A DNA stretch of 64,000 nucleotides from an uncultured Dysosmobacter sp. GTDB taxonomy: Bacteria > Bacillota > Clostridia > Oscillospirales > Oscillospiraceae. The stretch covers positions 124,001-188,000 of the forward strand of contig CANQPD010000004.1 of assembly GCA_947625655.1 (NCBI GenBank), given 5' to 3'. Position 1 is the stretch's first letter; each line of letters begins with the position of its first letter. This document shows, piece by piece, positions 40,059 to 60,561 of this stretch. The notes under the pieces are model-generated. The model was not told where the DNA came from. It ran no database searches and saw only the letters and a program-made list of their open reading frames with translations. Made by a program: the position numbers and the translations under genes.

Positions 40059-41168
40059 TTACTTCGCAGCCTTGGCGGCCTTGATGGCCTCGATCAGCAG
40101 CGGGGTGACCTTGAACAGGTCGCCGCAGATGCCGTAGTCGGCGATCTCGAAGATGGGAGCGGTGTCGTTCTTGTTCACCGCGATGATGCACTCGGAGTCC
40201 TGCATGCCCGCCTTGTGCTGGATGGCGCCGGAGATGCCCAGAGCCACATACACCTTGGGATGCACGGTCTTGCCGGTCTGGCCAACCTGATGGTCGGCGC
40301 TCAGCCAGCCGCTGTCGATGGTGGCACGGGAGCCGCCAACGACGCCGCCCAGGACGTCCGCCAGCTCCTCAGCCAGCTTGATGCCGCCCTCGACATCCTT
40401 GCTGATGCCGCGGCCGACGGAGACGATGTAGTCGGCGCCGATCAGGTCCACCAGCTTCTTGGCGGCCTTGACCACCTCCACGACCTCGGTCTTCAGATCG
40501 CTCTCAGCCAGCTGGAAGGCGGGCTTCACGATCTCGCAGGCGTCGGCCTTGGCCTGGTCGAAGGGGTTCTTCTTCATAACGCCGGGACGGACGGTGGCCA
40601 TGCAGGGACGGAAGCGGGGGCAGATGATGGTGGCCATCAGGTGGCCGCCGAAGGCGGGACGGGTCATCTTCAGGTTCCGGTCCTCCATATCCCACTTCTG
40701 GCTGTCCACGTCCAGCGTGGAGGATTCCCGCAGGAACTGGATGTAGTTGGCCACATCCACGTCCAGGTGGGTGCAGTCGGCGCACAGGCCGGTGTGCAGA
40801 CGGGCCGCGCAGCGGGGGCCCAGGTCACGGCCAATGTTGGTGGCGCCGATCAGGAACGCCTCGGGCTTCAGGTCCTCGATGACGTCGCAGATGACCTTGG
40901 CGTAGGCGTCGGTGTTGTAGACGCTCAGCAGGGGGCTCTCGCAGACGTACACCTTGTCGGCGCCGTAGCCGCCCAGCTCCTTGGCGGCGGACTCGATGCC
41001 CTCGCCGCCCAGCAGCAGGCCGCAGAGCTTCACGCCCAGCTCGTTGGCCAGGTCCCGGCCCTTGGAGATCAGCTCAAAATCGGTGGGCATCAGCTTGCCC
41101 TCGCGCTGCTCACAGAACACCCATACATCCTTGAAAGCAGCGATATCAGCACTGTTGAAATTAGACAT
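40059..41168 (-). CDS. etfA: Electron transfer flavoprotein alpha subunit
   Basis: A 369-residue EtfA, which holds the FAD that passes electrons to the acyl-CoA dehydrogenase. The C-terminal FAD-binding motif region reads GRGISKDVEGG...AELADVLGGVVGGSRATIDSGWLSADHQVGQTGKTVHPKVYVALGISGAIQHKAGM. In butyrate-forming Clostridia, Bcd-EtfAB bifurcates electrons from NADH to crotonyl-CoA and ferredoxin. It is the last gene of the cluster, 18 nt after etfB, with AAGGGAG upstream of the ATG. Confidence 0.96.
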   Translation of the reverse strand: MSNFNSADIAAFKDVWVFCEQREGKLMPTDFELISKGRDLANELGVKLCGLLLGGEGIESAAKELGGYGADKVYVCESPLLSVYNTDAYAKVICDVIEDLKPEAFLIGATNIGRDLGPRCAARLHTGLCADCTHLDVDVANYIQFLRESSTLDVDSQKWDMEDRNLKMTRPAFGGHLMATIICPRFRPCMATVRPGVMKKNPFDQAKADACEIVKPAFQLAESDLKTEVVEVVKAAKKLVDLIGADYIVSVGRGISKDVEGGIKLAEELADVLGGVVGGSRATIDSGWLSADHQVGQTGKTVHPKVYVALGISGAIQHKAGMQDSECIIAVNKNDTAPIFEIADYGICGDLFKVTPLLIEAIKAAKAAK

Positions 41169-41186: not shown

Positions 41187-41987
41187 TCAGATGATGTGCT
41201 TGTCGATCAGGATGCCGGCCAGCTTCTCGCAGGTCTCCTTGCCGTCGCCCTCCAGCATCACGCCGACGCCCTTCTGGGGAGGCGTGAAGCTCTTGAAGAT
41301 GTTGGTGGGAGAGCCCTTCAGGCCGATGGTGGTGGCATCGATCAGCTTGTGATCCTTCAGCTTCTCATAGTCGAAGACCTCCAGGGGCTTCTCATAGGTG
41401 GCATAGATGCCGCCGATGCTCATGTAGCGGGGCTCGTTCAGCTCCTTGATGCAGGTGACCAGGCAGGGGGTCTGGGTCTTGATGGTCATGTAGCCGTCTT
41501 CCAGCATACGCTTGACGGTGATGGTGTCGCCGTCCTTCTGGATGTCGGCGGCGTAGGTGATCTGGGGCAGGCCCAGCTTCTCGGCGATCTGGGGGCCCAC
41601 CTGGGCGGTATCGCCGTCGATGGCCTGACGGCCGCACATGACGATGTCGTCCTTCTCCACGCCGATGGTGTCGATGGCGGCGGCCAGGATCTGGGAGGTG
41701 GCGTAGGTATCGGAGCCGCCGAACTCACGGCCGGAGACCAGAACGGCGTCGTCGGCGCCCATGGCCATCAGCTCACGCAGCATGCCGGCGGCGGGAGGCG
41801 GGCCCATGGTGACCACGGTGACCTTGCAGCCGGTGGCGTCCTTCAGCTTCAGGGCGGCCTCAACGGCGTTCATATCGTCGGGGTTGGTGATGGTCTGCAT
41901 GGACGCGCGGTTCAGGGTGCCGTCAGGATTGACGGCCACCTTGCCGGAGGTATCGGGGACCTGCTTGACACAAACAATGATCTTCAT
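41187..41987 (-). CDS. etfB: Electron transfer flavoprotein beta subunit
   Basis: A 266-residue EtfB, partner of EtfA, starting MKIIVCVKQVPDTSGKV and carrying the LSGREFGGSDTYATSQ and DGDTAQVGPQIAEKLGLP segments that form the AMP/FAD site. It begins 18 nt after the bcd stop (AGAGGAGG upstream) and is followed by etfA. In bifurcating systems the beta FAD is where NADH electrons are split; the sequence fits this group by its cluster context. Confidence 0.96.
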   Translation of the reverse strand: MKIIVCVKQVPDTSGKVAVNPDGTLNRASMQTITNPDDMNAVEAALKLKDATGCKVTVVTMGPPPAAGMLRELMAMGADDAVLVSGREFGGSDTYATSQILAAAIDTIGVEKDDIVMCGRQAIDGDTAQVGPQIAEKLGLPQITYAADIQKDGDTITVKRMLEDGYMTIKTQTPCLVTCIKELNEPRYMSIGGIYATYEKPLEVFDYEKLKDHKLIDATTIGLKGSPTNIFKSFTPPQKGVGVMLEGDGKETCEKLAGILIDKHII

Positions 41988-42005: not shown

Positions 42006-43145
<1,140 letters not shown>

Positions 43146-43340: not shown

Positions 43341-43366
43341 TAGGGGGGACGCAGTCCCCCTTAGAC
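43341..43366 (-). terminator. Hairpin overlapping the abfD stop
   Basis: CTAGGGGGGA/TCCCCCTTAG stem with a 6-nt loop. It includes the abfD stop codon at 43361-43363, the same design as at 21915-21938. As bcd follows on the same strand, it may reduce read-through rather than end the operon. Confidence 0.6.
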
Positions 43367-44836
43367 AATTCCCGCGATATCCTTGGCAAGCTGCTTCTTG
43401 CCCTGGATGTTGCCCTGGCGGGCGATCATGATGCGCTGGGCCTGGGGAGAGCCGGCGCCGTGCATGGACTCGGTGCGGTAGCCGACGGCGGCGGCGCCCA
43501 GGCACAAATTCTCGATGAAGCGCATGATCCGCTGGCGGTTTTCGGTGCTGACGCCCTCCCGGGCAACGAAGAACTTGTTGCAGATGTCACCGATGGTCTC
43601 GCCGTTGCGGCCCACCACGGTGTCGCTGTTGAAATCCTTCTGAGAGGGCATGGTGACCATCAGGCCGCCGGCGATGTCCTCCGCCAGGCGGACGATCTCG
43701 TAGGGGAAGCGGGTGACGTTCTGCTTGCACACGTTGGCCAGCAGCAGGTCGATCTGATAGTTGCCCGCCTTGGTCTTGAAGCCCTGAGCGGAGCAGGCGA
43801 TGCCGCAGCAGAACAGCGTCTCGTTCAGGTGGGTCATCTCGATCAGCTTGTCCTTGACGGCGCTGGCCTTCTCCACGCCGTTGTACTCGGCGGCCAGGGC
43901 GGCGGCGCCGATCAGGGTGTCGCCCACGCCCACCTTGCAGCCGCCGTAGGACTGGCGGTGATAGCCGGCGAAGCGCTCCACGATCATGCCGGCGAACTCA
44001 TACTCGCCATTGAGGAAGATGTACTCGTTGGGGATGAACACATGGTCCAGCACCACCAGGGCCTCCTGGCCGCCGAACTTGGCGTTGCCCACGTCGATGG
44101 AGGCGTCCTCCTCCAGCTTGCGGGTGTCGCAGGACTGGCGGCCGTAGATCATGTACATGCCCTCGGCGTCGGTGGGGCAGGCGAAGGAGACGGCCCAGTC
44201 CTTGTCGGCCTCGCCCATGGAGATGGTGGGCATGAAGATGTGCCAGTGGCTGTTGATGGAGCCGGTCTGGTGGCACTTGGCGCCGCAGACCACGATGCCG
44301 TCGGGGCGGCGCTCCACAACGTGGACGTACATGTCGGGGTCGGCCTGGTCATGGGGGGCCTTGGAGCGGTCGCCCTTGGGGTCGGTCATGGCGCCGTCCA
44401 CGGTCAGGTCGTTGTCCTGAACATAGGTCAGGAACTTCTTGAAGTTCTCGTGATAGTGGGTGCCGTACTTCTCGTCGATCTCAAAGGTGGTGGAGAACAC
44501 GGAGTTGAAAGCGTCCATGCCCACGCAGCGCTGGAAGCAGGAAGCCGTCTTCTGGCCAAGCAAACGCTGCATCTTCACCTTGTTCATCAGGTCCTCGGTG
44601 GACTGGTGCAGGTGGGTGAAGCGGTTGATGGTGTGGCCGGTCAGGCTGGACTTCACGGTCATCAGATCCGCATACTGGGGATCCTGGGCCAGGGCATAGG
44701 TCATGGCGACGCAGTTGATGGAGGGGCGGATCATGGGGTGGTCCACCCAGTTTTCGATCTTCTCGCCGAACATGTATACCCGGGTGTTCAGCTTGCGCAG
44801 GCTCTCAATGTATTCCTGTGCGGTCATCAGTGCCAT
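43361..44836 (-). CDS. abfD: 4-hydroxybutyryl-CoA dehydratase / vinylacetyl-CoA isomerase
   Basis: A 491-residue [4Fe-4S] flavoprotein that dehydrates 4-hydroxybutyryl-CoA to crotonyl-CoA, the key step of the 4-hydroxybutyrate and GABA routes to butyrate. The cluster ligands match the well-studied Clostridium enzyme with a one-residue offset: Cys100 and Cys104 (ASCFQRCVG), His293 and Cys300 (GYHRQSYGGC). TAGGAGG precedes the ATG (MALMTAQEYIESL). It follows the CoA-transferase by 37 nt and precedes bcd. Confidence 0.95.
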   Translation of the reverse strand: MALMTAQEYIESLRKLNTRVYMFGEKIENWVDHPMIRPSINCVAMTYALAQDPQYADLMTVKSSLTGHTINRFTHLHQSTEDLMNKVKMQRLLGQKTASCFQRCVGMDAFNSVFSTTFEIDEKYGTHYHENFKKFLTYVQDNDLTVDGAMTDPKGDRSKAPHDQADPDMYVHVVERRPDGIVVCGAKCHQTGSINSHWHIFMPTISMGEADKDWAVSFACPTDAEGMYMIYGRQSCDTRKLEEDASIDVGNAKFGGQEALVVLDHVFIPNEYIFLNGEYEFAGMIVERFAGYHRQSYGGCKVGVGDTLIGAAALAAEYNGVEKASAVKDKLIEMTHLNETLFCCGIACSAQGFKTKAGNYQIDLLLANVCKQNVTRFPYEIVRLAEDIAGGLMVTMPSQKDFNSDTVVGRNGETIGDICNKFFVAREGVSTENRQRIMRFIENLCLGAAAVGYRTESMHGAGSPQAQRIMIARQGNIQGKKQLAKDIAGIV

Positions 44837-44873: not shown

Positions 44874-46430
44874 TCAGTCGTTGGCAAGGCCCATCAGCTC
44901 GTCACGGAAGATGCGCTCGTCCATGAGCTTCAGGTCCTCGGCGATCTTCGGCATGAACTCCATCTGATCCAGGATCTGGGTCTGAAGGTCGATGCCGGGG
45001 GCAATCTCGATCAGTGTCACGCCCTCGGGCCGCAGCTCAAACACGGCGCGCTCGGTGACGTACAGAACAGGCTGGTGCACCTTGTTGGCGTAGACGCCGG
45101 AGAAGGTGATGTGCTCCACCTGGTTGACGAACTTCTTCTTGGCGCCCTCCTGGACGATGACCAGCTTGCCGTCGCGGCACTCGGTCTTCAGGCCCTTGGC
45201 GGTGAAGGTGCCGCAGTAGACCACCTTCTTGGCGTTCTGGGTGATGTCGATGAAGCCGCCGGCGCCGGCCAGACGGGTGCCGAATTTGGAGACGTTCAGG
45301 TCGCCGTTGGGCGCGGTCTCCGCAAGGCCCAGGAAGGCCACGTCCAGGCCGCCGCCCTGATAGAAGTCGAACTGGACGTTGTGGTCCAGGATGGCCATGG
45401 AGTTGGCCGCGCCGCCGAACTGGGTGCCGCCGTAGGGCACGCCGGCGATGGAGCCGGCCTCCACGGTCAGGGTCATCTTGTTGGAGATGCCCTCCTCCGC
45501 CGCCACGTTGGCGATCTTCTCCGGCGCGCCGGTGCCCAGGTTGACGATGGCGTCCTGGGGCAGCTCCATGGCGGCCCGGCGGGCCAGAATCTTCTTGGCG
45601 TCCAGGGGGATGGAGGGGATGTCGTCCACGGGGATGCGGAATTCGCCGCTGAGGGCGCCGTCATAGGGCATGCCCAGGCACTGGAGGTTATCCTCGATGG
45701 AGCCCACCACGATGGCGTCCACATAGATGCCGGGGATCTTCACCAGGCGGGGATCCAGGGTGCCGCCCTGAACGATCTTCTCCACCTGGACGATGACCTT
45801 GCCGCCGGAGTTCTTGGTGGCCTGGCACTGGGCGGTGACGTCCAGGGGGCCGATCTCCCGGTGGACGGTGCAGTTGCCGTACTCATCGGCGTAGCTGGCG
45901 CGGACCAGGCAGACATCGATGGGGATGGGCTTGTACAAAAGCCGCTCCTCCCCCTCGATGTTGATTAGCTTCACCAGGTCCTCCTTGGTGCACTCGTTCA
46001 GCTTGCCGCCGCCGTTGCGGGGGTCCACAAAGGTGTACAGGCCCACGTGGGTGATGGTGCCGATGTTGTGGGCGGCGATGTCGCGGTACATGTGGGTGAT
46101 GACGCCCTGGGGCAGGTTATAGGCCTCCAGCTTGTTGGCAAGAGCCAGCTCGCCCAGCTTGGCCGCGCGGTCCCAGTGGCCGCCCACCACGCGCTTGCAC
46201 ATGCCCTCGTGGCCGAAGTGGTCGCCGCCGGTGCCGTCCCGGTGGCCCTGGCCCGCCGCGAAGAACAGCGTCAGGTCCCGGGGATGTCCGGTCTCGACGA
46301 AGCGCTGTTCCAGGGCCTTGGTCAGCGCCTCGGGGCAGGCGCAGCTGACGAAGCCGCCGGTGGAGACGGTATCGCCGTCCTTGACCATCAGGGCCGCTTC
46401 CTCAGCGGTGATGACTCGAACTTTCTTCAT
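44874..46430 (-). CDS. Acyl-CoA:acetate/propionate-type CoA-transferase
   Basis: A 518-residue class I CoA-transferase of the fused YdiF/propionate-CoA-transferase type. ATG at 46430 (MKKVRVITAEEAALMVKDG) has GAGGGA upstream. The likely catalytic Glu lies in LTVEAGSIAG at residue 324, the same number as the characterised propionate CoA-transferase. In this cluster it would load 4-hydroxybutyrate with CoA from acetyl-, propionyl- or butyryl-CoA; the true acceptor is inferred. It is not the shorter Cat2/AbfT-type enzyme. Confidence 0.9.
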   Translation of the reverse strand: MKKVRVITAEEAALMVKDGDTVSTGGFVSCACPEALTKALEQRFVETGHPRDLTLFFAAGQGHRDGTGGDHFGHEGMCKRVVGGHWDRAAKLGELALANKLEAYNLPQGVITHMYRDIAAHNIGTITHVGLYTFVDPRNGGGKLNECTKEDLVKLINIEGEERLLYKPIPIDVCLVRASYADEYGNCTVHREIGPLDVTAQCQATKNSGGKVIVQVEKIVQGGTLDPRLVKIPGIYVDAIVVGSIEDNLQCLGMPYDGALSGEFRIPVDDIPSIPLDAKKILARRAAMELPQDAIVNLGTGAPEKIANVAAEEGISNKMTLTVEAGSIAGVPYGGTQFGGAANSMAILDHNVQFDFYQGGGLDVAFLGLAETAPNGDLNVSKFGTRLAGAGGFIDITQNAKKVVYCGTFTAKGLKTECRDGKLVIVQEGAKKKFVNQVEHITFSGVYANKVHQPVLYVTERAVFELRPEGVTLIEIAPGIDLQTQILDQMEFMPKIAEDLKLMDERIFRDELMGLAND

Positions 46431-46467
46431 GACTGATCCCTCTTTTATATGTAATGTGGGTCCTGAA

Positions 46468-46610
46468 TTCAGAATTGATAATTGACAATTGATAATTGAT
46501 AATGAATGTGTCTGCCTGCGGCAGACAGGATTGCATTTGCCGCCTTTGGCGGCCTGCATTTTCCACCAATTATCAATTTTTAATTATGAATTATCAATTA
46601 CTTATTCTGG
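46468..46610. repeat. AT-rich inverted-repeat element between CoA-transferase and crotonase
   Basis: Left arm of ATTGATAATT-type tandem units, right arm of complementary AATTATCAATT units, and a GC-containing centre with CTGCCTGCGGCAG and GCCGCCTTTGGCGGC hairpins. It has the same architecture as 6043-6121 and 25778-25880. It overlaps the crotonase 3' end slightly. Confidence 0.75.
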
Positions 46611-47398
46611 AAGTGCTTTTCCTTGCGCTTTTCCAGGAAGGCGCCCATGCCCTCCTTCTGGTCGGCGGTGGCGAAGCACATGGCGAACAGCTCGTTCTCC
46701 AGGGCGATGCCGTCGTCAATGTCCATCTGCATGCCGCGGTCGATGCAGGCCTTGGAGTATTTCACGGCGATGGGGGCGTTGGCGGTGAAGGACTTGGCCA
46801 TGGCGATGGCGCCGTTCATCAGCTCCTCGGGGGCGTAGACGGCGTTGACCAGGCCGATCTCCTTGGCCTCGGCGGCGCCGATGACCTTGCCGGAGAAGAT
46901 CAGCTCCTTGGCCTTGGCGATGCCCACACGGCGGGGCAGGCGCTGGGTGCCGGAGAAGCCGGGGGTGATGCCCAGGCCCACCTCGGGCTGGCCGAACTTG
47001 GCGCCGCCCTTGCCCTCGGCGTTGGGGCCGGCGGCCAGGATGATGTCACAGCTCATGGCGATCTCGCAGCCGCCGCCCAGGGCGAAGCCGTTCACCGCCG
47101 CGATGGTGGGGATCTCCAGCTTCTCGATGCGGCGGAACAGGGCGCTGCCCCGCTGGCCCCACTTGCGGCCGCCGGCCACATCCAGGGGATACTGCTCGCC
47201 GATGTCGGCGCCGGCCACGAAGGAGCGGCCCTCGCCGGTGAGGATCATGGCGCCCAGGGTGGCGTCCTTCTCGATCTCGGTGATGACCTGCTCCAGCTCG
47301 GAGATCACGGTGGAATTCAACGCGTTCAGCGCTTCGGGACGATTGATGGTGACAATGGCGATATTGTCGTTCTTCTCGTAACGAATGGTCTGATACAT
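46598..47398 (-). CDS. Enoyl-CoA hydratase/crotonase family protein
   Basis: A 266-residue crotonase-fold enzyme (MYQTIRYEKNDNIAIVTINRPEALNAL). The two glutamates of the hydratase site are in FALGGGCEIAMSCD and GQPEVGLGITPG, and the oxyanion region is GADIGEQYP. In this setting it could hydrate crotonyl-CoA to 3-hydroxybutyryl-CoA or work in reverse; no Hbd or thiolase is present, so its role is uncertain. AAGGAGG precedes the ATG. It is the first gene downstream of the sigma54 promoter at 47478-47494. Confidence 0.93.
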   Translation of the reverse strand: MYQTIRYEKNDNIAIVTINRPEALNALNSTVISELEQVITEIEKDATLGAMILTGEGRSFVAGADIGEQYPLDVAGGRKWGQRGSALFRRIEKLEIPTIAAVNGFALGGGCEIAMSCDIILAAGPNAEGKGGAKFGQPEVGLGITPGFSGTQRLPRRVGIAKAKELIFSGKVIGAAEAKEIGLVNAVYAPEELMNGAIAMAKSFTANAPIAVKYSKACIDRGMQMDIDDGIALENELFAMCFATADQKEGMGAFLEKRKEKHFQNK

Positions 47399-47477
47399 GA
47401 GATGGTTCCTCCTTTTTCATATTCGGGCCCGTGCCGCCCTTCGCGGCGGTGCCCGACCCTTTGCTGCCATAAAATTA

Positions 47478-47494
47478 TAGCAAATTTTGTGCCA
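47478..47494 (-). promoter_or_regulatory. Sigma54 (-24/-12) promoter of the butyrate cluster
   Basis: On the minus strand: TGGCAC (47494-47489), AAAAT, TTGCTA (47483-47478). This matches the TGGCAC-N5-TTGCW consensus with correct GG-GC spacing. The start site would be near 47468, about 70 nt before the crotonase ATG. Confidence 0.9.
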
Positions 47495-47606
47495 GCTTTT
47501 CAAGGGCCACTTCCTGCCATTGGGGCCGTTTTTCTTGTGCAAGCTGCCTGGGTTTTTTTCGTTTTTTTGTGTGTCCTGTGCATGGCCCTGAACGGTTTTT
47601 TTGCGG

Positions 47607-47624
47607 CTATTCATTTTTGAATAG
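47607..47624. promoter_or_regulatory. Candidate activator-binding palindrome 1
   Basis: CTATTCATTTTTGAATAG, perfect 7-4-7 inverted repeat centred about 147 bp upstream of the predicted sigma54 start. The position suits an enhancer-like site. Confidence 0.8.
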
Positions 47625-47737: not shown

Positions 47738-47755
47738 CTATTCATTCTTGAATAT
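47738..47755. promoter_or_regulatory. Candidate activator-binding palindrome 2
   Basis: CTATTCATTCTTGAATAT, 17 of 18 palindromic positions kept relative to palindrome 1's design. It lies just before the -10 of the activator gene; a lone half-site TGAATAG is at 47770-47776. It could allow autoregulation. Confidence 0.78.
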
Positions 47756-47763
47756 GGTATACT
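47755..47763 (+). promoter_or_regulatory. Extended -10 promoter of the activator gene
   Basis: TGG followed by TATACT (47758-47763). No good -35 is seen. The overlap with palindrome 2 implies control by the activator. Confidence 0.6.
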
Positions 47764-47819
47764 CACAAATGAATAGAAGGCCCGGCTTCCGCCGGCATTT
47801 GAAAAGCGGGTGAAAAATT

Positions 47820-49265
47820 TTGTCACAGTCCACAACATTTTCCGATTTTTTTGGCAAGGACATCAACCTCAAGGGCCTGTTCGATATCATCAGCCCGGAG
47901 AACAACCTGGTGCTGGCGGACGATATGATGCTCTCCGACGCCAGCGGCATCATCCTGCGGGTCAGCGAGACCTATGAGAAGAACTTCGGCTTCGCCCACA
48001 ACTCCATCGTGGGCAGGTCCGCCTTTGACCTGGAGGCCGACGGCACGTTCACCCCCTGCATCACGGCGGAGGTCATCCGCCAGAAGCGGAAGATCACCGC
48101 CACCCAGACCATCAACCGCACCTATAAAAACGTGATGACCGTGGGCATCCCCCTGTTTGACGACAACGGGGAGCTGAAATACGCCGTGTGCTTCAACACG
48201 GTGTCCATGGAGCAGATCAACGCCATCCAGCAGAATTACCGGCATTTGCAGGACTCCCTGCAGCAGTATTCCGAGGAGATCGCCGAGCTGCGGACCCGGG
48301 CCACCTCCACCAGCCTGGTCTTTCGCAGCGCGCCCATGCAGCGGCTGTGGACGCTGATGCAGAACACCGCCAACACCAAGGCCAACATCCTCATCACCGG
48401 GGAGACCGGCGTGGGCAAAAGCGCCATCGCCAAGACCATCCACGCCATGAGCAACCGGGCCGACGGCCCCTTTATCGAGGTCAACTGCGCGGTGCTCCAC
48501 GAAAACCTCATCGAATCGGAGCTGTTCGGCTATGAGAAGGGCGCGTTCACCGGCGCGTCCTCCTCCGGCAAGATCGGCAAGATCGAGCTGGCCAACCACG
48601 GCACGCTGTTTCTGGACGAGATCGGCGAGCTGCCGCCCCACATCCAGTCCAAGCTCCTGCAATTGATCCAGGAGAAGACCATCGAGCGGCTGTCCGGCAC
48701 CAAGAAGATCGAGCTGGATTTCCGCCTGATCGTGGCCACCAACCGCAATCTGGAAGAGGCCGTTCAGCGGGGGCTGTTCCGCTCCGACCTCTTTTACCGG
48801 CTGAACGTCATCCGCATCCACATCCCGCCCCTGCGCCAACGGATGGAGGACATTTTCCCCCTGGCCCACCAGTTTCTGGCCCGGTTCTGCGGGGAGTACG
48901 GGAAGGAGCTGTCCTTCAGCCCCCGGTTTCTGGCCTTTTTGGAAAAATACGACTGGCCCGGCAATGTGCGCCAGCTGGAAAACCTCATTGAACGGCTGGC
49001 CATCACCGTCCAGGACCCCATCATCGACGTGACCCATCTGCCGGTGGAGTACACCGGCGACGCGGTGCCGCCGCCGGAGCTGCTGGCCCAGAGCGGCACC
49101 CTGGCGGAGCGGATGGAGGCCTATGAGGGGCAGATCATCCGGGATTCCTACCGCCGCTGCGGCACCACGGTGGCGGTGGCCCGGGAGCTGGGCATCTCCC
49201 AGGCCACCGCGGCCCGGAAGGTGGCCAAATATGTGCCCAGGGGCATGGGAGGTGCGCCGCTGTGA
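47820..49265 (+). CDS. PAS-AAA+ sigma54-dependent transcriptional activator
   Basis: A 481-residue enhancer-binding protein. An N-terminal PAS-like sensor (LSDASGIILRVSETYEKNFGFAHNSIVGRSAFDLE, about 37-75) is followed by a coiled linker (HLQDSLQQYSEEIAELRTRA). The AAA+ domain has Walker A GETGVGKSAIAKTI (about 194) and the sigma54-contacting loop GAFTGA (241-246). A C-terminal Fis-like helix-turn-helix closes it (GTTVAVARELGISQATAARKVAKY). The start is TTG at 47820 with a weak ribosome-binding site. It overlaps rpoN by 4 nt and is divergent from the butyrate genes, whose sigma54 promoter it most likely activates in response to a small molecule sensed by PAS. Confidence 0.92.
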   Translation: MSQSTTFSDFFGKDINLKGLFDIISPENNLVLADDMMLSDASGIILRVSETYEKNFGFAHNSIVGRSAFDLEADGTFTPCITAEVIRQKRKITATQTINRTYKNVMTVGIPLFDDNGELKYAVCFNTVSMEQINAIQQNYRHLQDSLQQYSEEIAELRTRATSTSLVFRSAPMQRLWTLMQNTANTKANILITGETGVGKSAIAKTIHAMSNRADGPFIEVNCAVLHENLIESELFGYEKGAFTGASSSGKIGKIELANHGTLFLDEIGELPPHIQSKLLQLIQEKTIERLSGTKKIELDFRLIVATNRNLEEAVQRGLFRSDLFYRLNVIRIHIPPLRQRMEDIFPLAHQFLARFCGEYGKELSFSPRFLAFLEKYDWPGNVRQLENLIERLAITVQDPIIDVTHLPVEYTGDAVPPPELLAQSGTLAERMEAYEGQIIRDSYRRCGTTVAVARELGISQATAARKVAKYVPRGMGGAPL

Positions 49266-50602
49266 GCCTGGTTTCCCTGAAGACCGAGCTGCGGCAGGAA
49301 TTAAAGCTGACGCCGCAGCTGCTGCAGTCCATGGAGATTTTGCAGATGAATTCCCAGGAGCTGCTGGAATACCTGGGCCGGGTCACGGAGGAAAACCCCC
49401 TGCTGGAGCAGGAGGACGCCCATGACCTGCGCAGCGCCTATGAGGAGCTGCGCCAGAAAGCCAGCTGGATCGACGGCGGCGTCTACGGCGCCACCTTTAC
49501 CCATGAGGAGGGGGAGCTGCCGGAGCGGGGCCGGATGGACCGGGAGACGGAGAGCCTCTCCGCCTTCCTCTGCGACCAGCTGGACCGCAGGCGGCTGCCC
49601 AAGCCGCTGCTGGCCCTGTCCAAGTACATTGCCGAACTGGTGGACGAGGACGGCTATCTGACCCAGGAGGACATCGACGGGCTGCTGGAGCTGAAGATCC
49701 CCCAGCCCCTTATCGACGAGGCGCTGGCCACCGTCCAGAGCCTGGAGCCCGCCGGCGTGGGCGCCAGGAGCCTGTCCGAATGCCTGCTGCTGCAGCTGTC
49801 CCGCCGGGAGGACGTCTCCCCCGTCGTGCTGGACATCGCCGCCCGGTTCCTGCCGGAGCTGGGGCGGAAGCACTACGGTCCCATCTCCCGGGAGCTGGGG
49901 GTGGGCGTGGAGGAGATCCAGGCGGCGGAGAAGGTCATCGCCGGGCTGGAGCCCCATCCCGGCCGGGCCTTCCAGAGCGCAGAGCCCACGGCGTATGTAC
50001 GGCCGGACATCTTCATCGTGGAGCTGGACGGCAGGCTGCAGGCGGTATTGAACGAATACTACCTGCCGCGGATCACCGTCAGCACCTACTACGCGCGGCT
50101 GCTGAAGGAATCCGACGAAAAGGAGACCCGAGCGTACTTACAGCAGAAAATGCAGCAGGCCAAGTGGCTGATGAACAGCCTGGAGCGGCGGGGCGGCACC
50201 CTGCGCCGCTGCGCCGACGCGATTTTAGAGGCCCAGCGGCCCTTTTTTGCCGGCGAGACCGGGATGCTGGCCCCCATGAGTCTCAGCTCCCTGGCGGAGA
50301 CGGTGGAGGTCCACCCCTCCACCATTTCCCGGGCCGCCAGGGGAAAGTACCTCCAGTGCCGCCAGGGCACCTATCCCCTGCGGTACTTTTTCAGCAGGGC
50401 GGTCAGCGCCCAGGGCCCCTCCCGCCAGGCGGTGAAGCAGAAGCTGCTGGCCCTGGTCCGGGCCGAGGACCCCAAGAGGCCTCTCAGCGACCAGCGGCTG
50501 TGCGCCCTGCTGGCGGCGGACGGCATGGCGGTGGCCCGGCGGACGGTGGCAAAATACCGCATTGAGCTGGGCATCGGGTCCTCCACGGCGCGGAAACGGT
50601 GA
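49262..50602 (+). CDS. rpoN: RNA polymerase sigma-54 factor
   Basis: A 446-residue sigma54. Region I is glutamine/leucine-rich (LTPQLLQSMEILQMNSQELLEYL), followed by the core-binding region and the C-terminal RpoN box ARRTVAKYR (425-433) that reads the -24 element. The GTG start overlaps the activator stop (GTGA), so both are made together. Having rpoN encoded directly with one activator next to one sigma54 promoter is a compact regulatory unit. A strong hairpin ends the operon. Confidence 0.96.
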   Translation: MSLVSLKTELRQELKLTPQLLQSMEILQMNSQELLEYLGRVTEENPLLEQEDAHDLRSAYEELRQKASWIDGGVYGATFTHEEGELPERGRMDRETESLSAFLCDQLDRRRLPKPLLALSKYIAELVDEDGYLTQEDIDGLLELKIPQPLIDEALATVQSLEPAGVGARSLSECLLLQLSRREDVSPVVLDIAARFLPELGRKHYGPISRELGVGVEEIQAAEKVIAGLEPHPGRAFQSAEPTAYVRPDIFIVELDGRLQAVLNEYYLPRITVSTYYARLLKESDEKETRAYLQQKMQQAKWLMNSLERRGGTLRRCADAILEAQRPFFAGETGMLAPMSLSSLAETVEVHPSTISRAARGKYLQCRQGTYPLRYFFSRAVSAQGPSRQAVKQKLLALVRAEDPKRPLSDQRLCALLAADGMAVARRTVAKYRIELGIGSSTARKR

Positions 50603-50651: not shown

Positions 50652-51596
50652 TTATGCGAAGGTCACAACGGTGCCGGTCTTGCCGTCCAGGGCGTCCAGG
50701 CAGCGGTCCAGGCTGGTGATGACAGCCCTTTTCCCAGGGTTGGCCCGGACAAATTTCATAGCCGCCTCCACTTTTGGCAGCATGCTGCCCACGCCGAACT
50801 GGCCCTCCTCCACATACCGGGCGGCCTCCGCCAGGCTGAGCCGGCTCAGGTCCCGCTGATCCGGCTTGCCGAAGTTGACCGCCACCTTTTCCACCTCCGT
50901 CAGGATCAGCAGGGCGTCGGCGTCCACCTGCTCCGCCAGCAGCTCCGCGGCGAAGTCCTTGTCGATGACCGCCGCCACGCCCTCCAGGGTGCCGTCGGGG
51001 TTTTCCACCACCGGGACGCCGCCGCCCCCGCAGGTGATGACGATGGCGTGGTCCCACAACAGCCGGACGGCTTCGATCTCCACGATTCGCCGGGGCAGGG
51101 GCGACGCCACCACCCGCCGCCAGCCCCGGCCCGCGTCCTCCCGCAGGACATAGCCCTTTTCCCGCTCCAGCTCTTTGGCCTCCTCCGCCGTATAAAAGCC
51201 GCCGATGGGCTTGGTGGGGTTCTGGAAGGCGGGGTCGTTCCGGTCCACCGCCACCTGGGTGGTCAGGGACACCACGGGGTAATTGCGGTTCCGGACGGCC
51301 AGGGCGTATTTCAGGGCCTGCTGGATGTGGTAGCCGATATAGCCCTGGCTCATGGCGCCGCAGACGTCAAAGGGCATGGGCGGCACCACCTCCCTGGCGG
51401 TCTCGCCGGCAAGCAGGATGCGGCCCACCTGGGGGCCGTTGCCGTGGACGATGGCCATTTCATAGCCCCGGCGGCTGATCTCGGCGATGTGGGCGGCGGT
51501 CTTGCGCACCACCTCCAGCTGGGCCTCGGCGGTGGGGGCGGAATCCTTGGACTGCAGGGCGTTGCCGCCCAGGGCGATCACGATTTTCTCGGGCAT
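50652..51596 (-). CDS. arcC: Carbamate kinase
   Basis: Transfers phosphate between carbamoyl phosphate and ADP, giving ATP in arginine, agmatine or purine/ureide fermentation. At 314 residues it shows IVIALGGNALQ at the N terminus, VHGNGPQVGRIL, CGGGGVPVV and LTEVEKVAVNFGKPDQ. ATG at 51596 has AAAGGAAG upstream; the longer frame is not coding-like. No transcarbamylase or deiminase gene is beside it in this window, so its pathway is unassigned. Confidence 0.96.
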   Translation of the reverse strand: MPEKIVIALGGNALQSKDSAPTAEAQLEVVRKTAAHIAEISRRGYEMAIVHGNGPQVGRILLAGETAREVVPPMPFDVCGAMSQGYIGYHIQQALKYALAVRNRNYPVVSLTTQVAVDRNDPAFQNPTKPIGGFYTAEEAKELEREKGYVLREDAGRGWRRVVASPLPRRIVEIEAVRLLWDHAIVITCGGGGVPVVENPDGTLEGVAAVIDKDFAAELLAEQVDADALLILTEVEKVAVNFGKPDQRDLSRLSLAEAARYVEEGQFGVGSMLPKVEAAMKFVRANPGKRAVITSLDRCLDALDGKTGTVVTFA

Positions 51597-52055
51597 GTGT
51601 GTAACTTCCTTTCCGCGCGTTTGGGTTTCGGGGAAACGCCGGCGAACCACAGGCCGGCCTTTCGTCCGTGTCCGGCGGTAGTTTGCGCGGAGAGGGCGGA
51701 AATGATGCAAAAAGTCCGGGGCCAAAAGAATAACCCTGCGTAAGGACAGCAAAATGTTCCGTTCAGTCTGTATGGAAAAAGCCATCTGACTTGGCATCTG
51801 CACTGTCCCAGACTATCCAGGCAGCACAAAAGGGCCTCCGGCAGGAAAGGAACGATTTTTCAGCGGAGCGGCACAGCGTGCGCGGCGCCGCGGCGGCCCT
51901 TTTTTCTATTGCATAGCGAGGCGGACGGTGTCCCATACAAGACTTACGGTTCGGCCTGTCCGCCCGAAATTTTGGGGTTCAGCGGCCTCTCGTATTGATG
52001 AGGCCGCCGCCCCATCTGCCGCCATTTTTGCGGTATGCCTCATGAAATCTACCCG
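51597..52055. other. Gene-poor stretch upstream of carbamate kinase
   Basis: About 460 bp without a credible gene. A GC-rich hairpin followed by CCCTTTTTT near 51877-51907 looks like a terminator for the plus strand with no intact gene upstream of it, a possible remnant. Beyond it the sequence leads into the broken UxaA-family frame. Confidence 0.6.
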
Positions 52056-54405: not shown

Positions 54406-57400
54406 TCAGTTACCAGATGCGGCATGGAACCACTGATAAGTTCTGAAAACATCTTGATTGACAGTAGCATCATAGGCGATTGCACCACTCCCGTCCTTGT
54501 TGAGGGAAACCTGTGCTGTGACGCTTTCACCCAGAATCGGCTTATAATACATAGCATGCATACCTTCAGATTCCTCACCATTTTTTGTCGCGGTACCGCT
54601 GACCGCAGTTACGCTTCCTCCATTGATCGTTAGTTTATTGTAGTTTGCCGAGATCCCGCAACTGTTTGCGCGGATGGTATAGCCCTCTGGCGCTGTCAAA
54701 GCCACATCACCGCCCCTCGCGGTCACACTGCCCCCGTTGACAATGAGATTGTTAACCGACAATCCAATGCTCGAGCCATCGGTACTGTTGCCAACATTCC
54801 TTTTGTTGATACTGCCTCCGGTCGTGGTGATGGTTCCGCCGTTGACAGTCATGTTGCCCGCCACACAAATGGCAAAGCTTCTAATATAGCCTGTGTCGTA
54901 GGAACACGTACCAGTTATATTGACTGTCAGACTTCCCGGACCCTCGATCATCAGTTCGGAGTTCTGGATATAAATTCCGCTGCTAAAGGTGGTATCTCCG
55001 GTGTAGGTCAGGCTGTTGTTTCCGATCAATTGAATGGTCAGGGTCTCCGTGCCTTTATATCCAAGGCAGGCATCCCCGATGGTCGCACCAGTTATATTGG
55101 TGGTGCCCTCTCCGGTATAGTGGTAATTATTCAGGGTCAGGATATTCGTTTCCGCATCATAAGAAACGGTTCCATCCCTGAAAACATTTTGCGCGTTTCC
55201 GCCTGTGACCTGCACGCCGCCGATCCAAAGATCATATTCCGTCGTATCCTCGACCCAGTGGGCGTAAAGGGTATGATCTTCCGTCCGCTTCACAGAGGTG
55301 TCGGACTCGACCTTGCTGCCGCCGTCTGCTTCAGTAAACCAGCCGGTAAAGGTATAGCCCTGCCGGAAGGGAGTGGGCAGCGTTCCGTAGGCGCCGTTAT
55401 ATGTGACGGTCGCGCTTGTTTCTGTGACCGTGCCGCCGTTGGCATTAAAAGTCACGGTGTAGGTGTTGGCCGTCCACTGGGCTGTGAAAGACTGATCGCT
55501 GTCAGGCATGGTGTTGGGCACATTCGGATCCCAACTGGTAAAGGTATAACCGGTGCGGGTGGCCGTAGGCGCCGTGATGGCCGTGCCGTAATCCACGGTT
55601 CCGCTGGTATACAATCCGGTCAGAGTGCCGCCGTTGGCGTTCCAGCTCAGGGTGTGCTGATTGAGCTTCCATTGGGCAGTAAAGGTGGAGTTTTGATTTG
55701 GAACAGTGGCGGGGACCTCCGGCTCCCAGCCGGTAAAGGTATAACCTTCACGGATCGGCGTAGGTTCAGTGATGGCCGTTCCGTAATACACCGTTCCGTT
55801 GGTATACGAGCCGTTCAGGGTGCCGCCGTTGGCTTCCCAGCTCACCGTGTACGGAATCGGCGTCCACTTGGCGTAGAGGGTCTTGTTTCCCGTCGCATCC
55901 GCAGCGATCTCTGTCACCTGCTCTCCGTTGAAACTGCTGTCCTCGTACCAGCCGCCAAAGGTATAGCCCGTTCGTGTGGCCGGAGCCAGGGTCACGGCAG
56001 TCCCGTAGGTATAGGAGGACGGGTTGGGATTGGCTGCGTCATCCACATTTTCATAGGTGATCTGATAGGTGTTTGCCTCGTCGCGGAACTGGGCGTAATA
56101 GGTCACGTCCCCCGCCACCGTAACGGTATCGTCCAGCGCCGTTCCGGAGCCGTCCGCCACCGTATTCCAGCCGGAGAAGGTGATGGTGTGCCCCGTTTCG
56201 GTCTTTTCCGGGGCCGGGCCGTCATACCGGGGCTTCGCGCCGTACTTCACGTTCTCGTCCGTCTCCAGCAGGGTTTCGCCGTTCATCCATTTGACGGTAT
56301 AGGTCAGGCGGTCATATTTGATCTCGATGACCGTTGTGCCGTCGGGGGCGATGGTCGTTTGCGCAAACTCCTTGGCGGGGCCAAAGCCCTCATAGGTCTT
56401 GGCATTGGCGGCGGTTTCGGTCATCACGGTGCCCGTCAGGCTTTCCTTCTCGTGCTCGGTGTACTCGTCGTTCTCCACGTTCTGCCAGAGGTGCTTGACG
56501 GTGTAGGTCACATTTCCCGGCGTCCACTTGGCGTAGAGGGTGTGTGCCCCGGCTGTTTCCACAACGGTGTCCGCCTCGACCTTTTTGCCGCTGTCATCGT
56601 TTGCCGTATACCAGCCCGCGAAGTTGTAGCCTTGCAGGGTGGGCGTGGGCAGCTCGCCGTAGGGCTGGCCGTAGGTGACGGTTCTCGTGGAATCGCCCAT
56701 CAGCTGGCCGTCCATCGGGTTAAGGGTCACGGTGTAGACTCTGGCCGTCCACTTGGCGAACAGGGTCACAGCCCCGGTGACCTCCGTGCTGAAGTCCCAC
56801 TTCTTCGTGCAGTTCTGGTCGCTGTACCAGCCGCCGAAGACATAGCCGTCCCGGGTGGGGTCGGCGGGCTTGGTGATGCACTCCCCGGTCCGGACCGTGG
56901 CCGCCGCCGTCTCACTGCCGCCCATGGCGTTGAACGTGACGGGATTCTGAACGCCCTCCCACCGGGCGGTGTAGACCGCGTTTCCAGTTACTGTTTCAGG
57001 CGGCGTCACGTCCCAGCCGGTGAAGAGGTAGCCCTCCCGTCCCACGGTGGGCGGAGTCAGCGCCGCGCCGTACTTGCAGGTCTGGACGATGTCCTTCGTG
57101 CCGTTTTCCGGTTTCCACGTCACGGTGTACTGGTTCCGGTCATAGTAAATTTTCACCACGGTGGAGCCGTCGGCGGCGATGGTCTGCTGGTCAAAGGCCT
57201 TGGCGGTAAAGCCGGTGTAGGTCCTGGCCGCCGCCGTGGTCCGGCTTTCCGTGAGACCGCGTTTCGTTTCCTTCGTTTCCAGCGTGTAGGCGCCGTTGAG
57301 CGCCTGCTGATAGTGCTCCACGGTGTAGTCGACCTCCGCAGGCGTCCACTTGGCAAAGAGGAGCTTGCCCTTGGTGCCGGGGAAGAATTTGGGCATGGTG

Positions 57401-60400
57401 TTCATCTTTTCCACCTTGCTGCTCTCAATAGAAGGGTTCGTGTACCAGCCAGCGAAGGCGTAGCCGGGTTTCGTGGGATCTGCGGGCCAGGTGATGGCGG
57501 CGCCCTCGCCGCCGGTGATCTGGGCCACGGCGGAGCCGCCCATGGGGTTAAAGCTGATGTACCGCAGCCCCTCCGGATCGCTCCATGTGATATGGATGAC
57601 CTTCTGGATGGGCTCGGAGGTGAAGGACAGCGCAGCCTTCTTCCATGTAATGGTCATGTCGGTCTCTTCGTTCAATGAGCCGGTGGGCGGCGTGACCGTC
57701 ACGGTATTGCCGGCCGGGTCGTAGCGGAAGGCCGGGTTAGAGAAGGAGATGGTAAAGGCTCTCTCGCTGTCGTCATCCCGATTGACCGCCCCCGTCTCAC
57801 CTGATTTCAGATCCATGTACTGCATGGTATAGGTGGAACCGGGCAGAGCAAGGCTCTTGACGGTCTTAATGTTGTAGCCTGTGTCATCCGTCACGGCAAA
57901 GGCATAGACATTCTGCTGCTCACCCGCCGACCACAACGGCCACTCATGGGCATAGAGGGTAGGCGCCCAGGTGAGCTTGCTGCTGTTGAAGGCCTGTGCC
58001 AAAAACTTGATGTCGATATACATCCCGATCTCGATGAGCATGGCTCCGGCGGAACGCTCCTCCTTCCCCTGTCCCTGCATCCAACACAGATGATAGAAGA
58101 AGTAGCCCCAAAGCTGGGAGTAGGCCCCGACATCCGCCACGATGCCGATCTTATCCAGATTTAGGGAGATCAGGCCCACATACATCTCCAGCCGCAGTCC
58201 CGCGCGGATGCCAACGGTGCCCACCACATAGAAATCGAAATTGTATTGGGGCGTGATGATGTCAATGGTCTCATTGGTAGCCTGTCTGGACTTCACACGG
58301 ACGGAAAAGTTGTACCGTTTCTGGGTGGTATAGTCAAAGCTCATACCCATGGACACCGCCAGATTGGCGCTGACCACGAATCTGCCCTTTACCTGCCAGC
58401 AGAAGATATGCAGGAAGGCGCTGCCGTTGTTTTCAAACAGCTTGACGTTGACGATCTCGAACCATGTGTCATTGGCGTTATCCATCACGCCGGCATAGAT
58501 CTCCGCCAGGGAATCCATCTCGCCGTCTGTTCCCTGTACGCCGCCCGCCTCGGCATAGTCTTCCATGCGGTCCATGATGGCGTCCAGTTTTTCCGTCATG
58601 GAGGCATCCTCCTCGTCCCCGCCTGCCGTAATGTCAGCGGTGAAGCCGATGCCGGTGTAGTTGCCCACATCAAAGGAGGCGTTCAAAGAGTAGTCATAGC
58701 GCAGGAAGCCTATTTTGTGGCGCTTGGTGCTGACGCTTTGCCGGAGGATGATCTCCTCCTCAAAGATGGCGGTGATGCTGATCTCCACCTTGTCGTTGAT
58801 CTTCACAGTAAAGGGGATACTGATCTCCACGTCAAAGCCATTGCCCTGCAGATGATCCAGCCTTTGGTTGGCACGCACCTTGATATTGATGTTCTTAACG
58901 TCAAATTCCACCTCTACCTTGTTTCCGTCTTTGGCCGCGGCAACAACGCCGCTGTACGGTACGGCGGAAGCCCGCATGGTTTTCATGGTTTCCTCCACCT
59001 GCTCGGGGTCCGGCAGCTCGTTCAGTTCGTCGCTCTCCAGCATCACTGCCGCGAGATAGAGGGCGGCCTCCTCGGCGTAACCGCTTGCTTCCACATCGTT
59101 TTTGATTTCTGCTTCGATCTCCGCCTTCTCCGCCTCGCTGACTTCGATCTCCTGATCCTGCGTGTAGTAGACGTCCAGCGCGGTTTCGATGTCCGCTTCT
59201 GTTGCGGAGGTGTAGGTGATGACATAGCTGTTGCCAGTTTGGGTAAATTCAGTGATTTTTCCATAAGAGTTTGCGGTGGCATTGTCGCTGTATGCGCTGC
59301 TGATAAAGCCGATGAAGTCGCCTGCGTCCAGGCTGTCCGCGTCCACATTTTCCATGGCTGCGGCCAGATTGTCCGCTGCGATGGTAATGGTGTTTACGTC
59401 AGTGTCCGTGTCCCAGCCGCTTTGGATGGGCAACACATCGGGCATAAAGAGCACATCCTCCACATCGGCCATCTCATAGCTGTAACTGCCGCCGCCGTTG
59501 ACGGCAGTGATCTTGATGTAACCTACCTCGCCCTCGGTGGAACTGACATCGTTCAGATTTACGCTGCCGGAGGTGACGGCCAGGGTGTCGCCCACTGCCA
59601 GCGTTTCAGAACCCGTGTAGGTAAAGCTGCCGCTGGCGGTGTTCTCGGCGCTGCGGCCCTGTCCGTCGATCTGATACAGTCCGGCGAACACCGTGTCCTT
59701 CAAGCCATCGGTGTCAGTGACCGGGATCCGCTTCACCCCATCGTTCAGTTGGGCGTTTTTCACCTCGTTTTTTGCGGTGAGGAGATTCAGATAGCGGATG
59801 GACGCGCTCTGCTCGCCATCGTCCAGTTTGAACCGCGCCGCCTCGTTCAGCAGCTCCACCTGATAGGTCTGTCCGGCTTCCAGCACAGCGGACACCTTGG
59901 AACCCCTGACGGTGTAGCCCACGGCCATATTGCCGCCTGTGATATTGATGAATTTCACGGCGGCTGTGATATCGCTCTCTCCGGTCACGCCCACCACGTC
60001 AAAGGAATATATACCTGCCGGAAGGTCCGTGCGGGTCACATAGTTTGGCGTTTCCATAGCCTGCACTTCTTCTCCCGCCGCCGTCTTGGCATAGAGGGTC
60101 ATGTTTTTTGTCACAGTGTCGCCCGTTTCCACCCCACGGGTCAGTCCGGCGTCATAGTACCAGCCCAGGAAGATCACCCCGGCCTTGGCCGGCGTAGGCA
60201 GGCTGCTGATGAGGGTGTCCTTCGCGGCGGTTTGGGGGGTGGGAAGGCTGATGTCCGGCTGACCGCTGCCCAGCGCAAATTGCACTTCGTAATAGGTGGT
60301 CTGGCTCGTCCCTCCGCCGGAGGAGCCGCCTCCGCCAGAAGATCCGCCGCCTGTGGAGGGCTTTTCCGGCTTGACGGCTGGATCTCCGGCCTCGGGGTCG

Positions 60401-60561
60401 ATGCTGACCCGCTCGGAGGGCACGCCGGGTTCCTGATACCAGGTCTCCACCGTTTCGTCCGTCCGCATACACAGTGTGGCCGCCTGGGCGCGGCTGGCAT
60501 TGCCCGCCGGATTAAAATTTACTCCGTCGCCGTTCAGAAGTCCGGTTTTCCACAGCTTCAA
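54406..60561 (-). CDS. Giant cell-surface repeat protein, 5'-truncated
   Basis: 2051 codons. The first residues (MKLWKTGLLNGDGVNF...ASRAQAATLCMR) are the end of an S-layer-homology domain. Upstream in frame is YARDAVL, then the match is lost at about 60580, so the signal peptide and other SLH units are missing. A Ser/Gly linker follows, then a unique 800-residue part, then about eight InlB-B/Listeria-Bacteroides-type repeats (RxGYTFxGWYxx...TLYAKW), MucBP-like segments and a beta-helix-like domain (DLWIGGVQV...NNYHYTGEG). The terminal TGA comes early: in the next frame ELSETHDPGYTAPAVPS...YQYFHAGSN extends to 54318 and repeats the YQWFHA motif, pointing to a one-base frameshift near 54407. 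Confidence 0.82.
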   Translation of the reverse strand: MKLWKTGLLNGDGVNFNPAGNASRAQAATLCMRTDETVETWYQEPGVPSERVSIDPEAGDPAVKPEKPSTGGGSSGGGGSSGGGTSQTTYYEVQFALGSGQPDISLPTPQTAAKDTLISSLPTPAKAGVIFLGWYYDAGLTRGVETGDTVTKNMTLYAKTAAGEEVQAMETPNYVTRTDLPAGIYSFDVVGVTGESDITAAVKFINITGGNMAVGYTVRGSKVSAVLEAGQTYQVELLNEAARFKLDDGEQSASIRYLNLLTAKNEVKNAQLNDGVKRIPVTDTDGLKDTVFAGLYQIDGQGRSAENTASGSFTYTGSETLAVGDTLAVTSGSVNLNDVSSTEGEVGYIKITAVNGGGSYSYEMADVEDVLFMPDVLPIQSGWDTDTDVNTITIAADNLAAAMENVDADSLDAGDFIGFISSAYSDNATANSYGKITEFTQTGNSYVITYTSATEADIETALDVYYTQDQEIEVSEAEKAEIEAEIKNDVEASGYAEEAALYLAAVMLESDELNELPDPEQVEETMKTMRASAVPYSGVVAAAKDGNKVEVEFDVKNINIKVRANQRLDHLQGNGFDVEISIPFTVKINDKVEISITAIFEEEIILRQSVSTKRHKIGFLRYDYSLNASFDVGNYTGIGFTADITAGGDEEDASMTEKLDAIMDRMEDYAEAGGVQGTDGEMDSLAEIYAGVMDNANDTWFEIVNVKLFENNGSAFLHIFCWQVKGRFVVSANLAVSMGMSFDYTTQKRYNFSVRVKSRQATNETIDIITPQYNFDFYVVGTVGIRAGLRLEMYVGLISLNLDKIGIVADVGAYSQLWGYFFYHLCWMQGQGKEERSAGAMLIEIGMYIDIKFLAQAFNSSKLTWAPTLYAHEWPLWSAGEQQNVYAFAVTDDTGYNIKTVKSLALPGSTYTMQYMDLKSGETGAVNRDDDSERAFTISFSNPAFRYDPAGNTVTVTPPTGSLNEETDMTITWKKAALSFTSEPIQKVIHITWSDPEGLRYISFNPMGGSAVAQITGGEGAAITWPADPTKPGYAFAGWYTNPSIESSKVEKMNTMPKFFPGTKGKLLFAKWTPAEVDYTVEHYQQALNGAYTLETKETKRGLTESRTTAAARTYTGFTAKAFDQQTIAADGSTVVKIYYDRNQYTVTWKPENGTKDIVQTCKYGAALTPPTVGREGYLFTGWDVTPPETVTGNAVYTARWEGVQNPVTFNAMGGSETAAATVRTGECITKPADPTRDGYVFGGWYSDQNCTKKWDFSTEVTGAVTLFAKWTARVYTVTLNPMDGQLMGDSTRTVTYGQPYGELPTPTLQGYNFAGWYTANDDSGKKVEADTVVETAGAHTLYAKWTPGNVTYTVKHLWQNVENDEYTEHEKESLTGTVMTETAANAKTYEGFGPAKEFAQTTIAPDGTTVIEIKYDRLTYTVKWMNGETLLETDENVKYGAKPRYDGPAPEKTETGHTITFSGWNTVADGSGTALDDTVTVAGDVTYYAQFRDEANTYQITYENVDDAANPNPSSYTYGTAVTLAPATRTGYTFGGWYEDSSFNGEQVTEIAADATGNKTLYAKWTPIPYTVSWEANGGTLNGSYTNGTVYYGTAITEPTPIREGYTFTGWEPEVPATVPNQNSTFTAQWKLNQHTLSWNANGGTLTGLYTSGTVDYGTAITAPTATRTGYTFTSWDPNVPNTMPDSDQSFTAQWTANTYTVTFNANGGTVTETSATVTYNGAYGTLPTPFRQGYTFTGWFTEADGGSKVESDTSVKRTEDHTLYAHWVEDTTEYDLWIGGVQVTGGNAQNVFRDGTVSYDAETNILTLNNYHYTGEGTTNITGATIGDACLGYKGTETLTIQLIGNNSLTYTGDTTFSSGIYIQNSELMIEGPGSLTVNITGTCSYDTGYIRSFAICVAGNMTVNGGTITTTGGSINKRNVGNSTDGSSIGLSVNNLIVNGGSVTARGGDVALTAPEGYTIRANSCGISANYNKLTINGGSVTAVSGTATKNGEESEGMHAMYYKPILGESVTAQVSLNKDGSGAIAYDATVNQDVFRTYQWFHAASGN

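Follow-up and report, generated by a model that had tools for sequence, protein, structure and literature searches.

A predicted sigma54 promoter with phased enhancers and an overlying candidate sigmaA promoter before the butyrate genes of an uncultured Dysosmobacter

Control of butyrate operons by sigma54 has been predicted in Clostridium, and in gel shifts SigL was reported to bind promoters so predicted (Nie et al. 2019, PMC6615313). That paper describes CrbR, XanR, XcgR, AhcR and YctR as sigma54 regulons for butyrate and butanol synthesis in Clostridium and Clostridioides, and its text does not mention Oscillibacter. According to excerpts of the respective papers, a sigmaN-to-sigma70 switch has been published for Neisseria pilE (PMC6755734), the GAFTGA-less NtrC of Caulobacter and Rhodobacter and VspR, once activators of the sigma54 type, reportedly act at sigma70 promoters (PMC10274813), and overlapping sigma54 and sigma70 sites in E. 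coli reportedly lead to repression by competition (PMC4551910). A literature search linking sigma54 or rpoN to butyrate in Oscillibacter or Dysosmobacter gave nothing relevant among the papers listed, nor did the combination described below turn up there. A preliminary description of this locus had set it against most described butyrate producers, in which these genes are said to use sigma-A promoters; on precedent it is overstated, given the Clostridium case of Nie et al. 2019 (PMC6615313). What is new here is the regulator, the enhancers and the promoter overlay, while sigma54 control of butyrate operons in Clostridium was already known.

Here, we analyze a 64,000-nucleotide stretch of DNA from an uncultured Dysosmobacter sp. 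(the window), in which the features that matter to the argument are:

40059-41168, minus strand: etfA
41187-41987, minus strand: etfB
42006-43145, minus strand: acyl-CoA dehydrogenase gene (bcd type)
43361-44836, minus strand: abfD, 4-hydroxybutyryl-CoA dehydratase
44874-46430, minus strand: YdiF-like CoA-transferase (the open frame reaches 46559, but translation more likely begins with the ATG at 46430)
46598-47398, minus strand: enoyl-CoA hydratase of the crotonase type, the gene nearest to the promoter
47474-47503, minus strand: candidate sigmaA promoter, TTGAAA (47503-47498)-N18-TATAAT (47479-47474), with the TG of an extended -10; predicted start 47467
47478-47494, minus strand: predicted sigma54 promoter (the box), -24 TGGCAC at 47494-47489 and -12 TTGCT at 47483-47479
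47608-47623, no strand: UAS1, TATTCATTTTTGAATA, 129 nt from palindrome start to box start
47739-47754, no strand: UAS2, TATTCATTCTTGAATA
47755-47763, plus strand: TGG-TATACT, putative sigmaA extended -10 for the activator-rpoN operon, lying between UAS2 and UAS3 and overlapping them
47760-47775, no strand: UAS3, with one mismatch; it lies 21 bp on from UAS2 (start to start) and shares bases with the activator -10
47820-49265, plus strand: sigma54 activator with a PAS-like domain (below the Pfam cut-off), an AAA+ domain with GAFTGA, and HTH_50
49262-50602, plus strand: rpoN (sigma54), its start overlapping the activator stop by 4 bp
50652-51803, minus strand: amino-acid kinase family gene, presumably of the carbamate-kinase type, which follows rpoN and serves as a synteny marker for rpoN loss in relatives

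The preliminary description had listed crotonase, CoA-transferase, abfD, bcd, etfB and etfA on the minus strand, and this gene content is right. AbfD can be regarded as securely identified from its full-length match to the solved enzyme 1u8v (E 1.9e-276, residues 3-490). The bcd and etfBA products resemble acryloyl-CoA reductase and butyryl-CoA dehydrogenase systems, and on the ordinary reading the cluster would form butyrate from 4-hydroxybutyrate. The whole cluster may be one transcript, although it is interrupted by a 167-nt gap behind crotonase and a 215-nt gap ahead of bcd. In the gap between crotonase and CoA-transferase (46431-46597), repeats of the ATTGATAATT/TATCAATT type occur together with one match resembling a terminator and one resembling a promoter; this may be a small mobile repeat within the operon. 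Further along the window, a 2,051-residue open frame (54406-60561, minus strand) with Listeria-Bacteroides repeats (Flg_new, eight stretches) probably encodes a large surface protein.

Divergently next door, as had been described, lie the activator and rpoN, both on the plus strand. The activator has GAFTGA and a DNA-binding domain; PrdR (NF041552) is its best NCBIfam match, yet at 351.6 bits it stays below the curated cut-off of 795. The genome of the window has one rpoN match, adjoining the activator. It also has a second full sigma54 activator (G000:C2:346652-349047; loci L001, L121 and L122), flanked by two sigma54 boxes; the genes behind these boxes, named by eye, we take to encode a cysteine desulfidase/serine dehydratase-type protein and a MalY-type aminotransferase.

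On the minus strand, positions 47494-47478 read TGGCACAAAATTTGCTA (17 bases; TGGCAC-AAAAT-TTGCTA), with the -24 GG and -12 GC at the right spacing, so the TGGCAC-N5-TTGCTA element of the preliminary description is present. The distance of 70 nt to the first gene given there does not fit the box, which lies 96 nt (from its start) or 80 nt (from its end) before the crotonase ATG at 47398, and does fit the start at 47468 predicted from standard spacing. With up to one mismatch allowed, the window has two matches to TGGCAC-N5-TTGCW, where shuffled sequence leads one to expect 2.48, and only that at 47478-47494 is mismatch-free. At that tolerance the motif is no commoner than in shuffles and was rejected as evidence by itself; conservation among relatives was therefore used. 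Across the whole genome, TGGCAY-N5-TTGCW has eight matches against one for the reversed pattern, and three of the eight sit just before genes (flanks read by eye).

Related genomes were searched for the -24/-12 element, as the preliminary description had proposed. Of 39 distinct regions upstream of crotonase, 37 (all but L029 and L039) carry TGGCAC-N5-TTGCT with up to one mismatch, at a distance of 54-117 nt from the start codon, while the N5 and the bases 3' of TTGCT are variable. The 39 regions come from the window and its relatives, identical upstream regions being merged; most of the records bear the name Oscillibacter, Dysosmobacter or Oscillospiraceae or are other genomes of this genus. 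This conservation argues strongly for the sigma54 box. A wider table has 68 rows, 67 of them with upstream sequence (L171, which has none, was left out), and there the box is found in 45 of 47 upstream regions with enhancers versus 1 of 20 without, two of the 20 coming from one genome (G230). Sign tests on the crotonase tree gave an average of 3.7 concordant and 0 opposite pairs for enhancers against box, and 3.4 and 0 for rpoN against box, too few for significance in both cases; the rpoN 'yes' of L074 and L076 in the table and tree tests is a default value rather than a genome result. The single enhancer-less region with a box, L182 (G180), has a crotonase gene with a perfect sigma54 box and no TATTCA-N4-TGAATA enhancers, directly after a distant rpoN (35% identical), and is perhaps an independent sigma54 arrangement.

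A candidate sigmaA promoter, TTGAAA-N18-TGCTATAAT, overlies the sigma54 box. It matches the consensus at 11 of 12 positions, is the best of five matches in the 7.9 kb scanned (1.4 expected), and has its -35 and -10 hexamers 18 bp apart, within the 16-18 bp expected of a sigmaA promoter. On standard spacings the two predicted starts, 47467 for sigmaA and 47468 for sigma54, fall within 1 nt of each other, so start-site mapping cannot discriminate between them; the primer extension for a start near 47468 that had been suggested as a test of sigma54 would fit either promoter. Among 45 boxes (L182, whose box has no enhancers, was left out), 29 have a hexamer that opens with the final T of TTGCT and matches TATAAT at five or six of its six places, and a TTG lies 17-18 bp upstream in 25 of these 29 compared with 2 of the 16 others (Fisher 1.7e-6). 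The -35 and -10 co-vary between species: in ten independent pairs on the crotonase tree that differ in the -10, the -35 is concordant in 5.5 on average and opposite in 0 (median p 0.03, range 0.03-0.06).

The best-surviving alternative is a pure sigma54 promoter on which TATAAT and TTGAAA arose by chance or from ordinary AT-richness. About a third of the relatives are without the overlay, and one other likely sigma54 promoter (L208) is followed by TATAAT with no -35, so the -10 match may in part reflect the usual AT-richness that follows the -12. We nevertheless consider it unlikely, because the TTG at 17-18 bp tracks the -10 and changes along with it on the tree, and because none of six other likely sigma54 promoters, picked by eye as promoter-like (L121, L122, L206, L208, L209 and L212), has both sigmaA elements (L208 has the -10 alone, L209 the -35 alone). 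We lean towards a sigmaA promoter that is functional in this species and may give basal transcription, with control of the promoter probably dual, by sigma54 and sigmaA. A purely sigmaA promoter, the sigma54 likeness being a by-product of the extended -10 and spacer, would account for the top-ranking 11/12 match with its extended -10 in the scanned 7.9 kb and for several box-less relatives with a sigmaA-type match nearby; it is very improbable, however, since 16 of the 45 boxes match TATAAT at fewer than five of six places and still keep TGGCAY-N5-TTGC, and since the box tracks both the enhancers (45/47 against 1/20) and GAFTGA.

The enhancers are three TATTCA-N4-TGAATA palindromes in the intergenic region between activator and crotonase. 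Perfect copies occur only twice in the 3.15 Mb assembly, both here (UAS1 and UAS2), and with one mismatch allowed there are three at the locus and three elsewhere. Nine relatives were searched for perfect palindromes, of which six have two, one has one and two have none; wherever they were found (seven of nine), all lie between the activator and the first butyrate gene, and the reversed control had no match in the nine. The UAS pair is 21 bp apart in every one of the 47 enhancer-bearing regions. UAS1-to-box distances of 96, 106, 127-131, 138-141, 148 and 158 (n = 45) differ in steps of about one helical turn (permutation p 0.0004, from 13 distinct values and with shared ancestry ignored), so that the upstream sites appear to be in helical phase with the promoter. 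Phased spacing of this kind is what looping by an enhancer-binding protein requires. We regard it as very probable that the butyrate cluster has a sigma54 promoter at 47494-47478 under the control of the adjoining activator.

The palindromes also reach the putative promoter of the activator itself. The distal half of UAS3 reads TGAGTA (32) or TGATTA (3) in all 35 loci with an adjoining activator gene and in none of the 12 loci without one, and on the opposite strand it is part of the extended -10 of the activator (TGG-TATACT in the window). The enhancer pair thus covers the activator-rpoN promoter, which makes negative autoregulation of the two genes likely. In the 12 loci without an adjoining activator gene all three palindromes remain at the crotonase promoter; an orthologue is found elsewhere in ten of these genomes and was not detected in G218 and G225. 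The surroundings of the moved activators (L057, L058, L061-L065, L071, L075 and L080) showed no palindrome, even with one mismatch allowed. These ten activators lie distant from the butyrate cluster, as does rpoN where the locus extends far enough, and in several of the loci the displaced activator stands beside what reads like rpsB and tsf. That the palindromes serve autoregulation alone and the butyrate promoter answers to another activator would suit the two of three palindromes that overlap or flank the activator -10 and the second full activator in the genome, but it can be set aside as highly improbable, given that the 12 loci keep the palindromes at crotonase and the ten moved activators have none.

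Variants of the arrangement occur among the relatives. In L073, L077 and L078 the first gene behind the enhancers is abfD rather than crotonase, with a sigma54 box before it in L077 and L078 (one mismatch in L078) and none in L073. One single-contig genome has an activator orthologue split across two frames (G233:C1:1793288-1794687), with box, enhancers and rpoN intact, reflecting either a sequencing error or decay.

Of the 48 activators in the tree, 45 carry an exact GAFTGA. The other three, L157 (G163), L158 (G169) and L073 (G203), have open frames and combine loss of the loop with retained Walker A/B motifs and HTH, as would be expected of a GAFTGA-less sigma70-type activator; in L157 the second loop is short of nine residues as well. 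No rpoN was detected in these three genomes (completeness 71, 88 and 96%, respectively). The window and L042 have the kinase gene after rpoN; in L157 and L073 it comes straight after the activator, and in L158 no rpoN was found within roughly 1.4 kb 3' of the activator. In all three promoters the box is absent and the three enhancers are kept (the third of L073 with two mismatches), at UAS1 distances equivalent to 129, 149 and 141 for L157, L158 and L073 (the last by hand); their sigmaA-like elements are TTGAAA-17-TAATAT, TTGTCA-18-TATAAT and TTGCAA-18-TATAAA (the last read by eye). The dN/dS of the GAFTGA-less activators against relatives is approximately 0.10-0.18, with dS saturated (2.3) for L158. 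On the activator tree the three stand apart as three changes and a single clade is rejected (AU p 0.02), a test to be read with caution as L157 and L158 are long branches; the nearest relatives of the L157 activator are L019/G174 on the crotonase tree and L049 on the activator tree.

In a further group that includes G168, G172, G173, G194, G212 and G213 the crotonase gene is present, and no rpoN, activator orthologue, enhancer or box was detected. L074 and L076 branch outside most of the set, yet box and enhancers are present in both, which makes loss more likely than gain on several occasions. The absence of rpoN was also considered as a perfect predictor of box loss and is contradicted by G200, G218 and G225, which keep box and enhancers with no rpoN detected. 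Incomplete assemblies may possibly lie behind this; in the unlinked group containing G218 and G225 the activator and rpoN lie together, hence an assembly gap is possible in these two. In L053, from the single metagenome assembly G200, rpoN ends after about a dozen codons (after 3405) and is followed by the kinase gene, despite which the GAFTGA of the activator and the sigma54 box are intact; the break is either a very recent loss or an assembly fault. Genome-wide, box matches number 5 versus 15 for the reversed pattern in nine rpoN-less genomes and 14 versus 5 in four rpoN-bearing genomes, counts that are blurred by matches inside genes and agree in direction with loss. Lack of other activators was dropped as support for sigma54 loss: a search at E 1e-60 found only this activator in the three rpoN-less genomes and likewise in the genome of the window, where it misses the known second one. 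The chances seem to us evenly balanced that the promoter is a built-in sigma-factor switch, such that at least three lineages would have lost sigma54 and the GAFTGA-less activator would now be a sigmaA regulator acting from the same sites in the same phase. If true, the shared bases and start would let a lineage lose sigma54 without silencing its butyrate genes, and the genus would offer a replicated natural experiment in abandoning enhancer-dependent transcription.

We propose that the divergently encoded activator binds the three enhancers and loops from UAS1 onto sigma54 polymerase at the box, where ATP hydrolysis acting through its GAFTGA loop would open the promoter, possibly in response to a signal read by the PAS-like domain. 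With the putative sigmaA promoter of the activator gene lying across UAS2 and UAS3, the activator and sigma54 would probably be under negative autoregulation, and the near-consensus sigmaA promoter on almost the same bases would provide a second, basal or competing route that varies between species. We hold this model as a whole, from sigma54 promoter and enhancer activator to autoregulation and sigmaA overlay, with good confidence. The regulatory link between promoter, activator and rpoN put forward in the preliminary description is supported by comparative evidence from conservation, enhancers, helical phasing and linked losses. The same evidence bears out the sigma54 part of its statement that this promoter drives the cluster, which is incomplete given the near-consensus sigmaA promoter on the same bases.

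The butyrate (4-hydroxybutyrate) genes of a gut genus would thus depend on a dedicated switch driven by enhancers, whose perfect target is confined to one place in every searched genome that has it, and this switch would be a handle on when these commensals produce butyrate. Close relatives span an intact sigma54 circuit, an overlaid promoter, a putatively converted activator with no sigma54 detected and loss of the whole circuit; hence the path from sigma54 to sigmaA control can be tested stepwise.

Like the regulons of PMC6615313, one of which (XanR) also covers an abfD operon, the locus has a sigma54 promoter, an activator of its own and UAS in front of butyrate genes, whereas operon order and host differ and the palindrome TATTCA-N4-TGAATA is unlike the TGT-N10-12-ACA of CrbR, AhcR and XcgR. 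As at Neisseria pilE, both promoter types precede one gene, and where rpoN function is lost the sigma70-type promoter appears to be relied on; in the excerpts of PMC6755734, however, the N. meningitidis activator is reported as truncated, whereas three lineages here keep a GAFTGA-less activator together with the enhancers, and the sigma54 and sigmaA sites share bases and predicted start, unlike those of pilE. The likeness to GAFTGA-less NtrC in the excerpts of PMC10274813 applies to the activators of L157, L158 and L073 and not to that of the window, and unlike the NtrC case each of the three has closely related orthologues that carry GAFTGA and act at this promoter in other relatives. The overlap of sites for two holoenzymes recalls the E. 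coli situation in the excerpts of PMC4551910, from which this promoter differs in that both forms have the same predicted start and the sigmaA elements co-vary across species.
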